DNA from: Candidatus Chlorohelix allophototropha
Lineage (GTDB): Bacteria > Chloroflexota > Chloroflexia > Chloroheliales > Chloroheliaceae
DNA length: 64,000 nt
Direction of reading: 5' to 3'
Assembly (NCBI RefSeq): GCF_030389965.1
Contig: NZ_CP128399.1
Coordinates: 1,912,934 to 1,976,933 of the forward strand
Under the pieces are notes generated by a model. It was not told the origin of the DNA. It saw only the letters and a list, made by a program, of their open reading frames with translations, and made no database searches. The position numbers were made by a program, and so were the translations under genes. Positions 35,173-56,584 of this stretch are shown piece by piece. Position 1 is the first letter of the stretch. Every line of letters begins with the position of its first letter.

Positions 35173-35517
35173 TTAAGCCATCATCATCTGGCAGGAAGCG
35201 GCACATTCCCGCAGCATTTTGGCACAAGCCATCATCTGCGCATCTTCCGCAAACTTCTCGCACTCCATCGCGCAGCGCATGCACATTTCGGCGCACAGCG
35301 CGCACACTTCCTTGCACATATCCGAACCATTAACCATAAAATTATTGCAGGTCTGACACATCATGGCGCAATCTTGCATCATCCGCATGCAATTGCCTTC
35401 CATAAATTTGTCGCCCATCATCATGCAGTAGGTCATGGTTTGCATACACATCCGATGGCAAGCCATACAATCGTCCATACATTTTTGCATCTCAGTAGTC
35501 ATTGTTACCATCATCAT
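35173..35517 (-). CDS. Csp-type four-helix copper storage protein
   Basis: A 114-residue Met- and Cys-rich protein of the DUF326/Csp family. It contains 18 cysteines, mostly in CxxC/CxxxC spacing along four predicted helices (KCMDDCMACHRMC, DCAMMCQTC, CALCAEMCMRC, CAKMLRECAASC). In characterised Csp proteins the four-helix bundle is lined with Cys that hold many Cu(I) ions. There is no signal peptide, so this is a cytosolic Csp3-like form. GGAG lies 7 nt before the first ATG. A hairpin with T-run lies in its leader (35622-35664), suggesting transcript-level control. No copper exporter or CsoR gene is adjacent. Confidence 0.9.
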   Translation of the reverse strand: MMMVTMTTEMQKCMDDCMACHRMCMQTMTYCMMMGDKFMEGNCMRMMQDCAMMCQTCNNFMVNGSDMCKEVCALCAEMCMRCAMECEKFAEDAQMMACAKMLRECAASCQMMMA

Positions 35518-35621
35518 CGCAGTTCTCCTTCAGTTAATTGATCTGCCCACGCTACTTTAGGACAGCACTTTAATTAATAAAGATTTCGAACCAACCCGGG
35601 CTTTTCCGATTAATGGTAATT

Positions 35622-35664
35622 AAAAAAGGTTCGACCCGGTAGGAAATAAGCCTCCGGTCGAACC
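35622..35664 (-). terminator. Terminator-like hairpin in the leader of the copper-storage gene
   Basis: On the minus strand GGTTCGACC (35656-35664) pairs with GGTCGAACC (35628-35636), with further pairing of CGG/AGG inside, and a T6 run follows (35622-35627). It is ~105 nt upstream of the copper-storage start codon with no minus-strand gene further up, so it is either an attenuator for that gene or ends an unseen transcript. A related GGTTCGAA (near 35584-35591) downstream could pair with the same arm. Confidence 0.6.
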
Positions 35665-35778
35665 TCCAGATGTCCGGTCAGTTCAACAAATTAGGGACAG
35701 AGCCATTCAAACAAAAACCTGAAAGGAAAAAGCCAAGTGCTTTTGAAAAGAGATTCAGAAATTTGAACAGAAAACCTC

Positions 35779-35807
35779 TTTACAAAAGATTTGAACAATG
35801 ATATACT
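35779..35807 (+). promoter_or_regulatory. Near-consensus promoter of an RNA without ORF
   Basis: TTTACA (35779-35784), exactly 17 bp, then TATACT (35802-35807). Transcription would start near 35814 and run into the terminator at 35952-35990. Confidence 0.6.
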
Positions 35808-35813
35808 TGAGTA

Positions 35814-35990
35814 GTCAGCTAAAGGATATCAAGATTAAATCCAAAATTACACAATCAGGTTATTAAGGCTCTAGAATGAAACTGGGTTATGGGTAGATAA
35901 AAGACGGCAATCTTAAACTCTAACCTAAAACCCAAGAAAATATAAGTTACTAAAGATCACATTGGGAGAAAACCTAGATGTGATCTTTTT
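35814..35990 (+). ncRNA. Predicted ~177-nt non-coding RNA
   Basis: The segment lies between a near-consensus promoter and a strong intrinsic terminator. The terminator has an 11-bp perfect stem (AAAGATCACAT 35952-35962/ATGTGATCTTT 35978-35988) and a T run. The longest frames inside are 6 and 19 codons with no ribosome binding site. Internal pairing is possible, e.g. AGGTTA with TAACCT, AAGATT with AATCTT and GGGTT with AACCC. Length suits a 6S-type or other regulatory RNA, but I recognise no known class. It is not the leader of the 36283 gene, which has its own promoter 220 bp further on. Confidence 0.5.
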
Positions 35991-36212
35991 GACGTTAAAA
36001 TAAATATATCAGAATAGTTTGAGCCTGTCAATAGAAAACAAAGATGACTAAAAGAGAAAATGCGGTTGTTTTTGTGTAAATTATTCCAACAATAGGCGCT
36101 ACAATTTTTGATATTTTGTTTAACATTTCGATTCGAAAAGTTGTGAAAAATCCCTCTACTCTTTTTGAATAACTCCTCTACAAGTAAATTGCTGAATCCA
36201 TAATAATTACTC

Positions 36213-36241
36213 TTGACATTGTTGATAAACTAAGTTATCTT
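36213..36241 (+). promoter_or_regulatory. Consensus promoter with dyad operator (site B)
   Basis: TTGACA (36213-36218), 17 bp, TATCTT (36236-36241). It matches site A at 23 of 26 positions from TTGACA through TTAT. The dyad is ACATTGTTGA/TAAACTAAGT (36216-36235; half-sites agree at 7 of 10). The start codon it serves is at 36283. Confidence 0.6.
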
Positions 36242-36282
36242 ATTACTGAGAGAAATTATTATTACAGCAAAAGAGGGAAAGC

Positions 36283-36612
36283 ATGAAAGACACAAAAAAA
36301 CTTTTATTCCGTTTTAATCCTGATGCACCATTGCGCCAAACCGTAAACTTTATTCGAGCGCAGGTTGCTGGTCAGGGCACCGAAAAGAGTTTTGCTCTGA
36401 CCGCTTTGGAGACCAGAAAGAGCTTTGATGAGTCTGGTTATGGGTTAATGCTGCCGCTAAATATCATTACCAATTCCAACGATACTAGCGCTGTGATACC
36501 AGCTTTGGTTTATCTGGATGGTAGCGGTTACAGTGAGCGCACCTTAAATCAATTGCTAGAATCTATCGGCTTACCAGAGGTTAGAGAATTGGTTGAGTAC
36601 AGCCTAGACTAA
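36283..36612 (+). CDS. Unknown 109-aa protein under the shared promoter
   Basis: A soluble alpha/beta protein beginning MKDTKKLLFRFNPDAPLRQT and ending LLESIGLPEVRELVEYSLD. No signal peptide, Cys motif or known signature was recognised. AGAGGG lies ~8 nt before the ATG. It is monocistronic: the IS21-type element starts 73 bp after its stop. Its promoter shares a 26-bp sequence with the one ahead of the flavoprotein cluster, so the two are probably regulated together. Confidence 0.65.
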   Translation: MKDTKKLLFRFNPDAPLRQTVNFIRAQVAGQGTEKSFALTALETRKSFDESGYGLMLPLNIITNSNDTSAVIPALVYLDGSGYSERTLNQLLESIGLPEVRELVEYSLD

Positions 36613-36864: not shown

Positions 36865-37662
36865 TTAAGAACCAGTTCCCGCTTCCGGTTTCTTTTCTTC
36901 TGGTGGAAGTTGCCGACGCTCTAAGCCGTAACTCTCCTTTCCTAAAGTGCGGTAACTGCTACCTCTTAAATAAAAAACTTCTCCGTGATGCAATAAACGG
37001 TCAATAATCGCCACCATCAAGGCAGTATCACCACCCTCGATCAGTTCGCCCCAGTTAGAAAGGCTTTTGTTACTGGTAATGATCGTAGCACCTCTGAGGT
37101 AACGTCCGCTGATCAGCTCATATAAGGCCGGACCTACACGTGCGTCCATCGGTAAATAGCCCAGTTCGTCTAATACCAACACCTGACATTTCAAAAGCGG
37201 CTCTAAAATCCTGGCTATTTCCTGGCGAGTGCTAGCCGCAATCACTTGGTTCGCCAGTTGTTGAGCCGTAATGAACTTTACGGTGTAACCCAACTGCACC
37301 ATCTTAATTCCGGCTGCAATCGAAAGATGGGTTTTCCCAAGCCCACTTGCCCCGATTAGGAGTAAATTCCCAGCTTTTTCTACAAAACTGCTGTCGAAAT
37401 AGCGTAAAATCACGCTGCGCTTCAGTTCCGGGTGGCGACTGAAATCGAATTGTTCCAGGCTGGCTTCAAAAGGGAAACTGGCTGAGTGCAAACGCTTTTT
37501 GAGTTGGTTCTCCTGACGAGATAGCAACTCTTCGCTTAACAATTCTTCTAAAAACTCCCCGTAATCCATTCCGGTTTCGCGTGCCCGTTCAATCCAATCG
37601 CTGTATACCTGTTTTACCCTGCCCAGTTTTAGGCTGGTGAGTTTATGTTCCAGACTATTCAT
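36865..37662 (-). CDS. istB: IstB-like AAA+ ATPase helper of IS21 transposition
   Basis: A 265-residue DnaA/DnaC-like ATPase that assembles on DNA and directs the IstA transposase. Walker A is GASGLGKTH, Walker B is VLVLDELGYLPMD, and the sensor region TIITSNKSLSNWGELI follows. The N-terminal LTSLKLGRVKQVYSDWIERA is the IstB-specific part. Its start overlaps the istA stop by 4 bp (ATGA), so translation is coupled. Complete in length. Confidence 0.93.
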   Translation of the reverse strand: MNSLEHKLTSLKLGRVKQVYSDWIERARETGMDYGEFLEELLSEELLSRQENQLKKRLHSASFPFEASLEQFDFSRHPELKRSVILRYFDSSFVEKAGNLLLIGASGLGKTHLSIAAGIKMVQLGYTVKFITAQQLANQVIAASTRQEIARILEPLLKCQVLVLDELGYLPMDARVGPALYELISGRYLRGATIITSNKSLSNWGELIEGGDTALMVAIIDRLLHHGEVFYLRGSSYRTLGKESYGLERRQLPPEEKKPEAGTGS

Positions 37663-39182
37663 CCCACCGCCCTTTCTATTTCATTTTCCTCAGGTATGGC
37701 CGAAAAACGGTTGGCCACCAGTGGTTCGTATTCACTGAGTAGCCGTTCCACCGCTGGTTGAGTGGGCTTGAGGGTAGCGGCATTACTGCCTGAACCCGCT
37801 GGCTTGAGTAATAAACCCTTGAGATATTCCGCCCCGTAAAGCTGTTGTTCCGTTGCCAATTCCACCGCCGCCTGGAATTCTTCCAGCCCTACCTGCTGGG
37901 CCAGCGCGTATAGTTGGTGGATTTGTTCACTCATGGTGGCTCTTTGCCGTCGACAGATTACCGCCACATACTGGTACACTTGCGGTCCTAAATTTAACAA
38001 CCAATCCCGCCACACCATGGTTCTGGCTCTGGGTTTGATCTCAAAAGCTTGGGTGTAATGTTCCGGTATTACTAAGCGGCGGTTTCGGGAATAACAACGG
38101 GGGTGCTGTGCCACCAGTTCCGTACCCCGCCATAACTTCAGCCATTCCCGATGTATCCGGGCTGTCAGGGTTTGTCCCATTAGTTCCGCCGGTACGCTAT
38201 ATTTGTTGGTCTCAAAAATGACTACCCCTTCCCGGTTTACCACCAGGCTGGTAAATAAACCGTAATCCCGGGCACTAGCAGGCAATGGGCTGAAGTGTTT
38301 ACGCTCTATTTCCAGTAAGCTACCCGGAATTTCCCCGGTCGCTGCGCATGTACGCTCGTAATTCACTACCCCTAACCATTCTTCCAACTGCCTTACCAGA
38401 TCCGCCGCATCGTAGAATGTACGACCAGCTAGAAAATTGTTTTTGGTATACTTTACCAAATTTTCTACGGCACCTTTCTGGTTTCCGCTGGCCGGGGCAC
38501 AGGCTTCCGGGTGAAACTCGAATTCTAGTGCCAGTTTCTGCCACACCGGATGCCACACTGGTTGGTTCTTTTCATCTCGCCTCAGTACCACCGTCTTCAT
38601 ATTATCCGTGGTAATTACCCACGGTACTCCCCCCATCCGGTTGAGGGCTTCCACCAGGCAGCGCACCAGCGTTTCTTCGGCCATATCTTTCTGAAAGCTC
38701 ACATACATAAAACGCGAGTATTTCAGCCGGGCACAGAAAAAGTAGAAGGTTTGGGGTACACTATCTTGTTTACTGAACAGCACTCCCCGAATTTCACCCC
38801 AGTCTATTTGCAAAAACTCTCCAGGTAAGCCCTCAAAACGTATCTGTACCTGATGAGCCTGGTTCTCTCTGGCTTTTTTGAGCTTGCGCACATAGTCATA
38901 GAAGGCGGTGGGTCTGCCACAGTAGGGCTGTTTGGGATCTTCCCACGCTAGTTCCAGCATTCTTTTCACTTGTAGTTTTTGTTCTAGCCAGCCTTCAATC
39001 TGTTCTTTGAAGACTGCCACACTACTTTCACGATTGGGGCGGGTTTGTACCTTGTCGCTAGGTTCATTTAGCACTCTTTTTACGGTACGGGCATCATGTT
39101 GCACTTTGCCCGCAATTACGTTGTAGTTGTCCCCTCGTTTCCGGTGGTACTTTATTGCGCTTCTGGCCATAACTTCTAACAT
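37659..39182 (-). CDS. istA: IstA transposase of IS21 family
   Basis: A 507-residue DDE transposase. An N-terminal helix-turn-helix (YNVIAGKVQHDARTVKRVL) precedes the catalytic core with D127 (FLQIDWGEIRG), D193 (VITTDNMKTVV) and E240 (NQKGAVENLVKY). The C-terminal half is the Mu-like beta domain (EGVVIFETNKYSVPAEL). All key residues are intact, so the element looks active. GGAG directly abuts the first ATG; Met5 is an alternative start with 12-nt spacing. Confidence 0.93.
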   Translation of the reverse strand: MLEVMARSAIKYHRKRGDNYNVIAGKVQHDARTVKRVLNEPSDKVQTRPNRESSVAVFKEQIEGWLEQKLQVKRMLELAWEDPKQPYCGRPTAFYDYVRKLKKARENQAHQVQIRFEGLPGEFLQIDWGEIRGVLFSKQDSVPQTFYFFCARLKYSRFMYVSFQKDMAEETLVRCLVEALNRMGGVPWVITTDNMKTVVLRRDEKNQPVWHPVWQKLALEFEFHPEACAPASGNQKGAVENLVKYTKNNFLAGRTFYDAADLVRQLEEWLGVVNYERTCAATGEIPGSLLEIERKHFSPLPASARDYGLFTSLVVNREGVVIFETNKYSVPAELMGQTLTARIHREWLKLWRGTELVAQHPRCYSRNRRLVIPEHYTQAFEIKPRARTMVWRDWLLNLGPQVYQYVAVICRRQRATMSEQIHQLYALAQQVGLEEFQAAVELATEQQLYGAEYLKGLLLKPAGSGSNAATLKPTQPAVERLLSEYEPLVANRFSAIPEENEIERAVG

Positions 39183-54802: not shown

Positions 54803-55825
54803 TTATTTGAAAAGGTCTGGATAGAGAGCAAGCGCAATTTGCTCCACCCCTTCAGCAGCGCGAGGTCCGGGGCGATTGGTGAGATCGGCAATTACAGTTC
54901 GAATATTTTTGTTTTTTACTGCCGTAAGTTTATCCCAACCGGCGCGGGCGGTAACGGTGCTAATGGCAGCAGCATCATCCTTCACAAATCCGCCATCCCC
55001 AGAACTGAGAATAATAACCTGCGGATCGGCGGCAATTATCACTTCGTTTGTCAATTGGGGATAGGGGTTAGTTCCGGCAGGCGCAATATTTACCCCACCG
55101 GCTTTTTCAATCATATCGTTCAGGAAGGAACCGGCGGCAACCGTATAAAGGTCGCCAAGATCAAAGAAAACGGTTACCTTTTTGCTGGCATTTTTGACTT
55201 TGGAAGCTACATTATCAAGGCGATTCTGGAAATTCTTCGCCTCAGTATCACCCTTATCCGGCACACCGGCGGCTTTACCCACCAGTTTAATGTTAGCTAC
55301 TACTCCCGCCAAATCCTTTGGATCAAACACTATCACGTTTATGTTTCTTTGTTCAAGAGTCGGCACTACTGTTTTGAGGTGCAGGCTGGTAGCCAAAACC
55401 AAATCTGGGCTGAGGCTAATAACTTTCTCAAGATTAATATCGGCAAAGCTACCGACCTGCTCTTTTTTGGCAGCTTCCGGTGGATAGTTGGAAAACTGGT
55501 CAACCCCAACCACCTGCTCTGCTAAGCCTAGAGCATAAAGTATTTCAGTGCTGCTGGGTGCAAGCGAAACTATTTTCGTGGCAGCTTTAGCCAGCTTAAC
55601 AGTGCGTCCGGCATCGTCTTTCAACTCTAGCGGAAAGGTTGCAGCGGTAGTGGCAGCAGCGGTAGTGGTTAGAGCACTTGCAGTAGTAGCTGCCGAGGTG
55701 GTTGCAACTTTGGTTGTAGTAGTAGCCGGTACAGAAGTTGCGGTATTATCACCACAAGCAACGAGCAGCACCGTCAGAATTAGTAGAGCAGTGCCAAACC
55801 AACGAGTCAAATAGGATTTTTTCAA
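54803..55825 (-). CDS. btuF: BtuF-type vitamin B12-binding lipoprotein
   Basis: A 340-residue ABC-transporter substrate-binding protein (class III). A signal peptide ends in the lipobox LLVAC (C24), so Lgt would acylate it; a Thr/Ala-rich linker of ~45 residues follows. Domain: GRTVKLAKAATKIVSLAPSSTEILYALGLAEQVVGVDQFSNYPPEA, VLATSLHL and VNIAPAGTNPYPQLTNEVIIAADPQVIIL are typical of BtuF/FecB. The cobalamin riboswitch in its leader argues for B12 rather than siderophore. No permease or ATPase gene is adjacent. Confidence 0.85.
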   Translation of the reverse strand: MKKSYLTRWFGTALLILTVLLVACGDNTATSVPATTTTKVATTSAATTASALTTTAAATTAATFPLELKDDAGRTVKLAKAATKIVSLAPSSTEILYALGLAEQVVGVDQFSNYPPEAAKKEQVGSFADINLEKVISLSPDLVLATSLHLKTVVPTLEQRNINVIVFDPKDLAGVVANIKLVGKAAGVPDKGDTEAKNFQNRLDNVASKVKNASKKVTVFFDLGDLYTVAAGSFLNDMIEKAGGVNIAPAGTNPYPQLTNEVIIAADPQVIILSSGDGGFVKDDAAAISTVTARAGWDKLTAVKNKNIRTVIADLTNRPGPRAAEGVEQIALALYPDLFK

Positions 55826-56013: not shown

Positions 56014-56175
56014 ATGACCCGTGCGTCCTCTCTCTCGAAGGCGTTCGCAACGGCACGATTAGGGACAGGCATTCTGGCTTTCGGGATGAACCGATTTACA
56101 GTAGCGGGACTGCGCCGGAATTTCACCGGACTTTCCCTGTGTCAATCTTCTGCTTGGCGGATTTGCACCGCGCCT
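56014..56175 (-). promoter_or_regulatory. Cobalamin riboswitch
   Basis: On the minus strand the conserved core is clear: GGTGCAAATCCGCC, then GGGAAAGTCCGGTGAAATTC, CGGCGCAGTCCCGCTACTG (the B12-box region), and AAGCCAGAATGCCTGTCCC. Order and spacing fit the B12 aptamer. It is ~190 bp upstream of btuF. B12 presumably represses. Confidence 0.93.
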
Positions 56176-56584
56176 ATTTTATTCAAAAGGCGAGAAGATA
56201 TTCCCTAATTGTATCTATATGCAAATTTAAATGAGCATTTCGGAAAACTGGGTTAATAATATCATCCGGTTTTGGGACTGTCAAACGATAAGTGGATAAT
56301 GGGCTGAATAAAACCAAACCCAAAAGGATATAGTACGTTCCTTCGGGTGGAATAGTTACTTTAGAAGCATAGCTGCCAATATGAAAGTTAGTTTGTTTCG
56401 TGCTATTTCTATCAAAGGGCTAAGCTTGGCTATCTTAATGCGGTAAATTGGCTTTGTATTACGCTTTGACTACTGCAAAATAAATCTGACAGTTGTAAAA
56501 TGAGATCAATCTTTTGTCTATGTACTTTGAGCCTTAATACCTGTTAATTGCAGAGTAATAGATTTGTTGGAATAGAGGGTAGCT
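56176..56584. other. Gap between riboswitch and methyltransferase
   Basis: AT-rich intergenic DNA holding the promoters of the divergent btuF leader and methyltransferase gene; no clear consensus or gene was seen. GAGGG precedes the methyltransferase ATG. Confidence 0.3.

Follow-up and report, generated by a model that had tools for sequence, protein, structure and literature searches.

A facing promoter pair, kept in a second genus, suggests antisense control of a copper-storage gene in 'Candidatus Chlorohelix allophototropha'

What does a short stretch of DNA do for its host if it carries a promoter and a terminator-like hairpin and lies between genes? The question is raised by positions 35779-35990 of the window, the whole 64-kb stretch analysed here, which belongs to 'Ca. 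Chlorohelix allophototropha' L227-S17. The genome of this host amounts to 6.09 Mb in five contigs, among them contig 1 (2.961 Mb), contig 3 (375 kb) and contig 4 (241 kb), and its published description comprises chromosomes of 2.96 and 2.45 Mb, a 375-kb chromid and plasmids of 241 and 55 kb (PMC10972752). An earlier note on this DNA had proposed an orphan, possibly 6S-like, RNA unit on which nothing downstream depends. The unit lies in a 765-bp intergenic region dividing two divergent genes, csp on the minus strand and a 109-aa ORF on the plus strand, and, judged from sequence, is best filed as a cis-antisense RNA predicted to arise from a convergent promoter in the leader of the copper-storage gene. 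The features of the locus are as follows.

35173-35517, minus strand: csp, encoding a Cys/Met-rich four-helix-bundle copper-storage protein, Csp3-like, 114 aa.
35518-35996, minus strand: predicted 5' leader of csp, running for about 479 nt from promoter P2 (the counterpart in the relative L227-5C measures about 240 nt).
35622-35667, minus strand: T2, intrinsic-terminator hairpin with T6, -23.4 kcal/mol, strong, situated in the csp leader; L227-5C lacks it.
35772-35837, plus strand: conserved block of 66 nt (compared with L227-5C L043 5026-4961) that includes P1 together with the RNA's first ~24 nt.
35779-35807, plus strand: P1, antisense promoter TTTACA-17-TATACT with an extended -10 (TGATATACT), from the sequence and a promoter scan.
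35814-35992, plus strand: predicted non-coding RNA of ~178 nt, its start and end likewise predicted, antisense to the beginning of the csp leader.
35952-35990, plus strand: T1, 11-bp hairpin with a short T-run, terminator-like on this strand, not conserved in L227-5C.
36003-36031, minus strand: P2, facing promoter TTGACA-17-TATATT with an extended -10, 11/12 in the promoter scan.
36213-36241, plus strand: promoter-like site of the 109-aa ORF, TTGACA-17-TATCTT, from the promoter scan.
36283-36612, plus strand: the 109-aa ORF, no family assigned.

The promoter and hairpin at 35779-35990 are confirmed to be real and beyond chance: among 1000 dinucleotide shuffles of the 765-bp region, either strand being counted, 2 contained a promoter scoring at least 10/12 that was followed, 60-450 nt downstream, by a T-run-bearing stem of at least 10 bp. 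As the earlier note had described, P1 consists of TTTACA (35779-35784), a 17-nt spacer and TATACT (35802-35807), to which an extended -10 TG can be added. The perfect 11-bp inverted repeat of T1 (35952-35962/35978-35988), which was detected by a hairpin scan permitting loops of up to 16 nt, is likewise present; the hairpin (-16.1 kcal/mol) is directly followed by TTTTTGAC. Three of the 11 stem pairs are G-C, and the T-run is short, three of its five T's being able to pair in the stem. As a terminator, T1 is fair rather than strong. Over 180 nt the predicted RNA, starting near 35814, is more stable than its shuffles (z -3.15), mainly through the terminator hairpin and a second hairpin at ~35883-35934; the fold can be summarized as hairpin, linker, terminator hairpin. 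Inside the transcript, no plus-strand ORF of at least 20 aa begins; a 6-codon ATG frame, MKLGYG (35876-35896), is present, with AAGG ahead of it.

What had been missed is the opposite strand, with the 11/12 promoter P2, the terminator T2 (35667..35622) and csp, the gene to which they lead. The csp product matches Csp3 structures (5FIG, E 5.7e-9; 6ZIF, 1.4e-12), and its match to the Csp1 model is weak. P2 is the best-scoring promoter of the intergenic region, at the far end from csp, and no other promoter-like site scoring 9/12 or more points at csp in the 600 bp scanned upstream, these scores being measured against a sigma-70 consensus that is not calibrated for Chloroflexota. P1 lies within the csp leader and points at P2, with ~195 bp between the two promoters and ~485-513 bp separating them from csp. 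Transcription from P2 is predicted to start near 35996 and the RNA from P1 to end at about 35990-35992, about 4 nt short of that point, so the RNA would be antisense to the leader over about its first 180 nt. Two traits expected of a cis-encoded antisense RNA are found here: the stretch 35814-35992 (plus) lies opposite the P2-to-csp leader, which is itself predicted, and P1, the RNA's own promoter, is conserved along with the target csp. Being antisense to the csp leader and facing the csp promoter, the unit is not an orphan, and the view that nothing depends on it finds no support.

The next gene on the plus strand, the 109-aa ORF, does have its own promoter-like site (36213-36241), in agreement with the earlier reading. 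No relative of this ORF was found in L227-5C, which implies that P1 was not ancestrally its promoter, and none was found among 40 related genomes. One distant paralogue (30%) lies on chromosome 2 (C2:628288-628584) within a longer ORF. An IS21-family element (istB and istA genes; 36865-39182, minus) adjoins the 109-aa ORF, and a 32-aa hydrophobic ATG frame with no clear Shine-Dalgarno sequence (MLNKISKIVAPIVGIIYTKTTAFSLLVIFVFY; 36028-36126, minus) ends at the -35 of P2. A toxin-like peptide from a 35-aa TTG frame (35691-35798, minus) was considered and rejected, the frame having no Shine-Dalgarno sequence and not being conserved.

The nearest useful relative, L227-5C, belongs to the same family and another genus, and encodes a csp orthologue (59% identical) on JACAUC010000007.1. 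This gene is preceded by a single sense promoter (TTGACA-17-TATATT with TG) and a single facing one (TTTACA-17-TATAGT with TG), 92 bp apart and hence ~100 bp nearer each other than in L227-S17. The scores are identical in both genomes (10/12 for P1 and 11/12 for P2), as are the 17-bp spacers and the extended -10 TG. The 66-nt block around P1, which was found by position comparison and was not recovered in a genome-wide nucleotide search, is identical at 45 of 66 positions without gaps, a score that none of 2000 shuffles reached, whether or not the P2 stretch was included; stricter match/mismatch scoring left a 39-nt core (12/2000 shuffles). Within the block, the -35, TG and -10 positions are identical at 13 of 14 sites versus 32 of 52 elsewhere (Fisher p 0.022). 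Upstream of csp in L227-5C lies a 969-aa ORF in the same orientation as csp, so that there is no protein gene that P1 could drive in that genome. Of the three features whose conservation the earlier note had set as a test, the promoter was retained but the stem and terminator were not: the csp locus of L227-5C has neither a T1-like nor a T2-like terminator, and past its first ~24 nt the RNA body cannot be aligned, its length and fold differing as well. Consequently, no RNA structure can be claimed as conserved. Across the 23 csp-like Chloroflexota loci scanned, the facing pair is present in two (L227-S17 and L227-5C) and absent from the other 21; the arrangement is therefore specific to the Chlorohelix/L227-5C lineage.

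Facing pairs of extended promoters scoring at least 10/12 appeared in none of 3000 shuffles of either region (L227-S17 or L227-5C), and P1/P2 is the sole such pair in the 64-kb window. Exact TTKACA-N14-TGN-TATANT sites number nine in the 6.09-Mb genome of L227-S17 and 15 in L227-5C, P1 and P2 supplying two in each, although this pattern was drawn up after P1 and P2 were known, so that the counts show rarity and are not an independent test. When one mismatch was allowed, the pattern returned 99 sites versus 29 for the reversed control in L227-S17 and 134 versus 9 in L227-5C, an excess indicating that it does pick up promoter-like signals. No further facing pair turned up among the L227-S17 sites with up to one mismatch, nor among the 15 exact sites of L227-5C. 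With its promoter kept in another genus and counted among the nine exact sites of the genome, the short non-coding transcription unit proposed from the sequence is well supported.

The affiliation of the RNA was sought in known families. As noted before, it falls into no recognised class: the Rfam covariance search, at gathering and relaxed thresholds, gave sub-threshold matches only. RAGATH-35 (35702-35787, minus) reached 22.3 of 38.9 bits and was rejected; the others are attributable to chance. The suggested likeness to 6S RNA (RF00013) comes down to length, since the region 35700-36300 has no 6S match at E<=10 and the predicted RNA lacks the long 6S rod with its central open bubble. The only 6S match in the genome, C1:1145510-1145702 (minus), is full-length and below the cut-off (36.8 of 46.4 bits, E 1.6e-5), folds as a long rod (z -3.56) and is probably the genome's 6S RNA. 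A mobile repeat was rejected, no further genomic copies of the unit being found. A nucleotide search in 60 relatives yielded short chance matches, mostly within genes; a 32-nt match in an intergenic region of L227-5C (L033 8760-8791) is at chance level, a plasmid collection gave no match, and a suspected likeness to the start of 23S rRNA was unsupported by Rfam on the region concerned. A near-perfect ~17-bp hairpin lacking a T-run lies at L033 8952-9008 of L227-5C, in a non-coding gap of 416 bp next to a BchU-like methyltransferase gene. The window itself holds an AdoCbl-II (cobalamin) riboswitch above the Rfam cut-off (56059-56153, minus), with an 11/12 extended promoter ending at 56256, just upstream; the gene below it (54803-55825) looks like one for a periplasmic metal/cobalamin-binding lipoprotein.

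Both promoters, their facing geometry, their occurrence in a second genus and the gene to which they lead can be read directly from the DNA, and such a pair in a second genus suggests that antisense transcription controls copper storage. We give slightly better than an even chance to control of csp by convergent promoters together with a cis-antisense RNA, acting through transcriptional interference, pairing with the leader, or both. P2, on which csp would depend, would transcribe the gene on the minus strand via the long leader, and P1, within that leader, would fire in the opposite direction, producing a short antisense RNA, non-coding and terminated at T1 before it reaches the csp start point. 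RNA polymerases heading from P1 for P2 would collide with, or block, those starting at P2, and the released RNA would be a perfect complement of the leader's first ~180 nt. Repressed by P1, csp would be held low until the balance between the promoters changes, for example, through a copper regulator blocking P1 or activating P2. We lean towards transcriptional interference as the main mode and duplex formation as a secondary one, because the promoters are conserved but the RNA body, its length and its terminator are not.

The minus strand offers a different candidate for the functional RNA, namely the structured csp leader, running from P2 and carrying T2 as an attenuator, with T1 as its 5' stem-loop and P1 incidental. 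The leader of L227-S17 does fold better than shuffles (z -3.85), T1 read on this strand would form a stem-loop at leader nt ~9-45, and T2, strong as a terminator, lies between divergent genes, where P2 alone can feed it. T2 also counts against the convergent-promoter reading: since it stands between P2 and csp, with no csp-directed promoter of at least 9/12 after it, csp of L227-S17 would need read-through or regulated antitermination; T2 is peculiar to this genome as compared with L227-5C, and is either leaky or regulated, or else csp has an unrecognised promoter past it. The leader of L227-5C, however, lacks a terminator and folds little above chance (z -1.38); the antisense strand there reaches z -4.58 only across a span that runs through P2, and is thus not comparable. 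A search for an antiterminator failed as well, the best alternative pairing of the 5' arm of T2 being matched by 131 of 500 shuffles, and the conserved block contains the -35, TG and -10 of P1 rather than a helix. We regard this leader reading as unlikely. An attenuator of the type known from the plasmids pIP501 and pT181, in which the plus-strand RNA would bind the nascent csp leader and promote termination at T2, would suit L227-S17, where the antisense RNA spans the 5' part of the leader and a terminator separates the leader from csp. Yet the best pairing of the T2 5' arm falls outside the region covered by the antisense RNA, leaving no antiterminator pairing with that region, and P1 is conserved in L227-5C despite the lack of T2 there, all of which makes such an attenuator improbable.

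The RNA might also act in trans on other targets, its position opposite the csp leader being incidental. Its own promoter, terminator-like end and better-than-shuffled fold would fit a trans-acting RNA, but in L227-5C the sequence past ~24 nt is not conserved while the facing promoter geometry is, and no Rfam family claims it; we hold this to be about as improbable as attenuation. Antisense transcription is common in bacteria, and P1 could be a pervasive antisense promoter with no regulatory role, a possibility made easier by the fact that the pair is supported by two genomes only. It is countered by the place of P1 among nine exact extended promoters in 6.09 Mb and by its conservation between genera at a divergent locus, and we assign it a low probability, between those of the leader and attenuator readings. 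Control of csp by convergent promoters is our preferred explanation.

A more specific version of convergent-promoter control is a copper-responsive switch, in which P1 in the leader restrains csp in Chloroflexota phototrophs with type I reaction centres and copper releases it. The copper signal is suggested by the identity of the csp gene, and we put the switch forward tentatively, as possible but clearly below an even chance. The regulation of bacterial copper-storage proteins is, as far as we know, poorly described, we know of no copper-storage gene controlled by an antisense promoter and copper release, and a literature search on antisense RNA and copper storage returned nothing relevant. 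The conserved facing-promoter pair constitutes a compact, testable circuit, and the locus illustrates how a small RNA that looks orphaned can turn out to be one half, the visible one, of a regulatory pair.

Antisense-controlled transcription attenuation operates in the plasmids pIP501 (PMC4981023) and pT181. The csp locus of L227-S17, but not that of L227-5C, shares with these plasmids a long leader, whose 5' part is covered by an antisense RNA, and a terminator, T2, ahead of the gene; it differs in that the gene is a chromosomal metal gene, no antiterminator was found and the terminator is absent in L227-5C. Cis-antisense transcriptional interference is the mode for which the icsA antisense RNA of Shigella and the phage 186 promoters are cited in PMC12802891, and MtlS of Vibrio is a cis-encoded antisense RNA acting in this manner (PMC6597380). 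Like these, the unit described here is predicted to yield a short RNA opposite the 5' end of the neighbour's mRNA, whereas the gene and phylum are different and regulation is, in our case, putative. A close parallel, demonstrated experimentally, comes from helD and pps of Bacillus subtilis, where a facing extended -10 antisense promoter represses the sense promoter and gives rise to a terminated antisense RNA of ~90 nt, in a system that senses rifampicin; promoters were sought there at 45-100 bp from each other and within 300 bp of the gene, with a -35/-10 spacing of 16-20 bp (PMC12802891). In both genomes studied here, the sense promoter is similarly opposed by an antisense promoter with an extended -10, lying in the 5' UTR, each with 17-bp -35/-10 spacing, and in L227-S17 a short terminated antisense RNA is predicted. 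L227-5C falls within the distance limits (~92 bp apart; ~276 bp from csp) and L227-S17 outside them (~195 bp; ~485-513 bp). Unlike in helD/pps, the gene downstream serves copper storage rather than rifampicin resistance, and nothing at the csp locus suggests a drug. If the proposed control is true, convergent-promoter regulation, known for antibiotic genes of Bacillus, would also govern the storage of a metal in a photosynthetic lineage only recently brought into culture.
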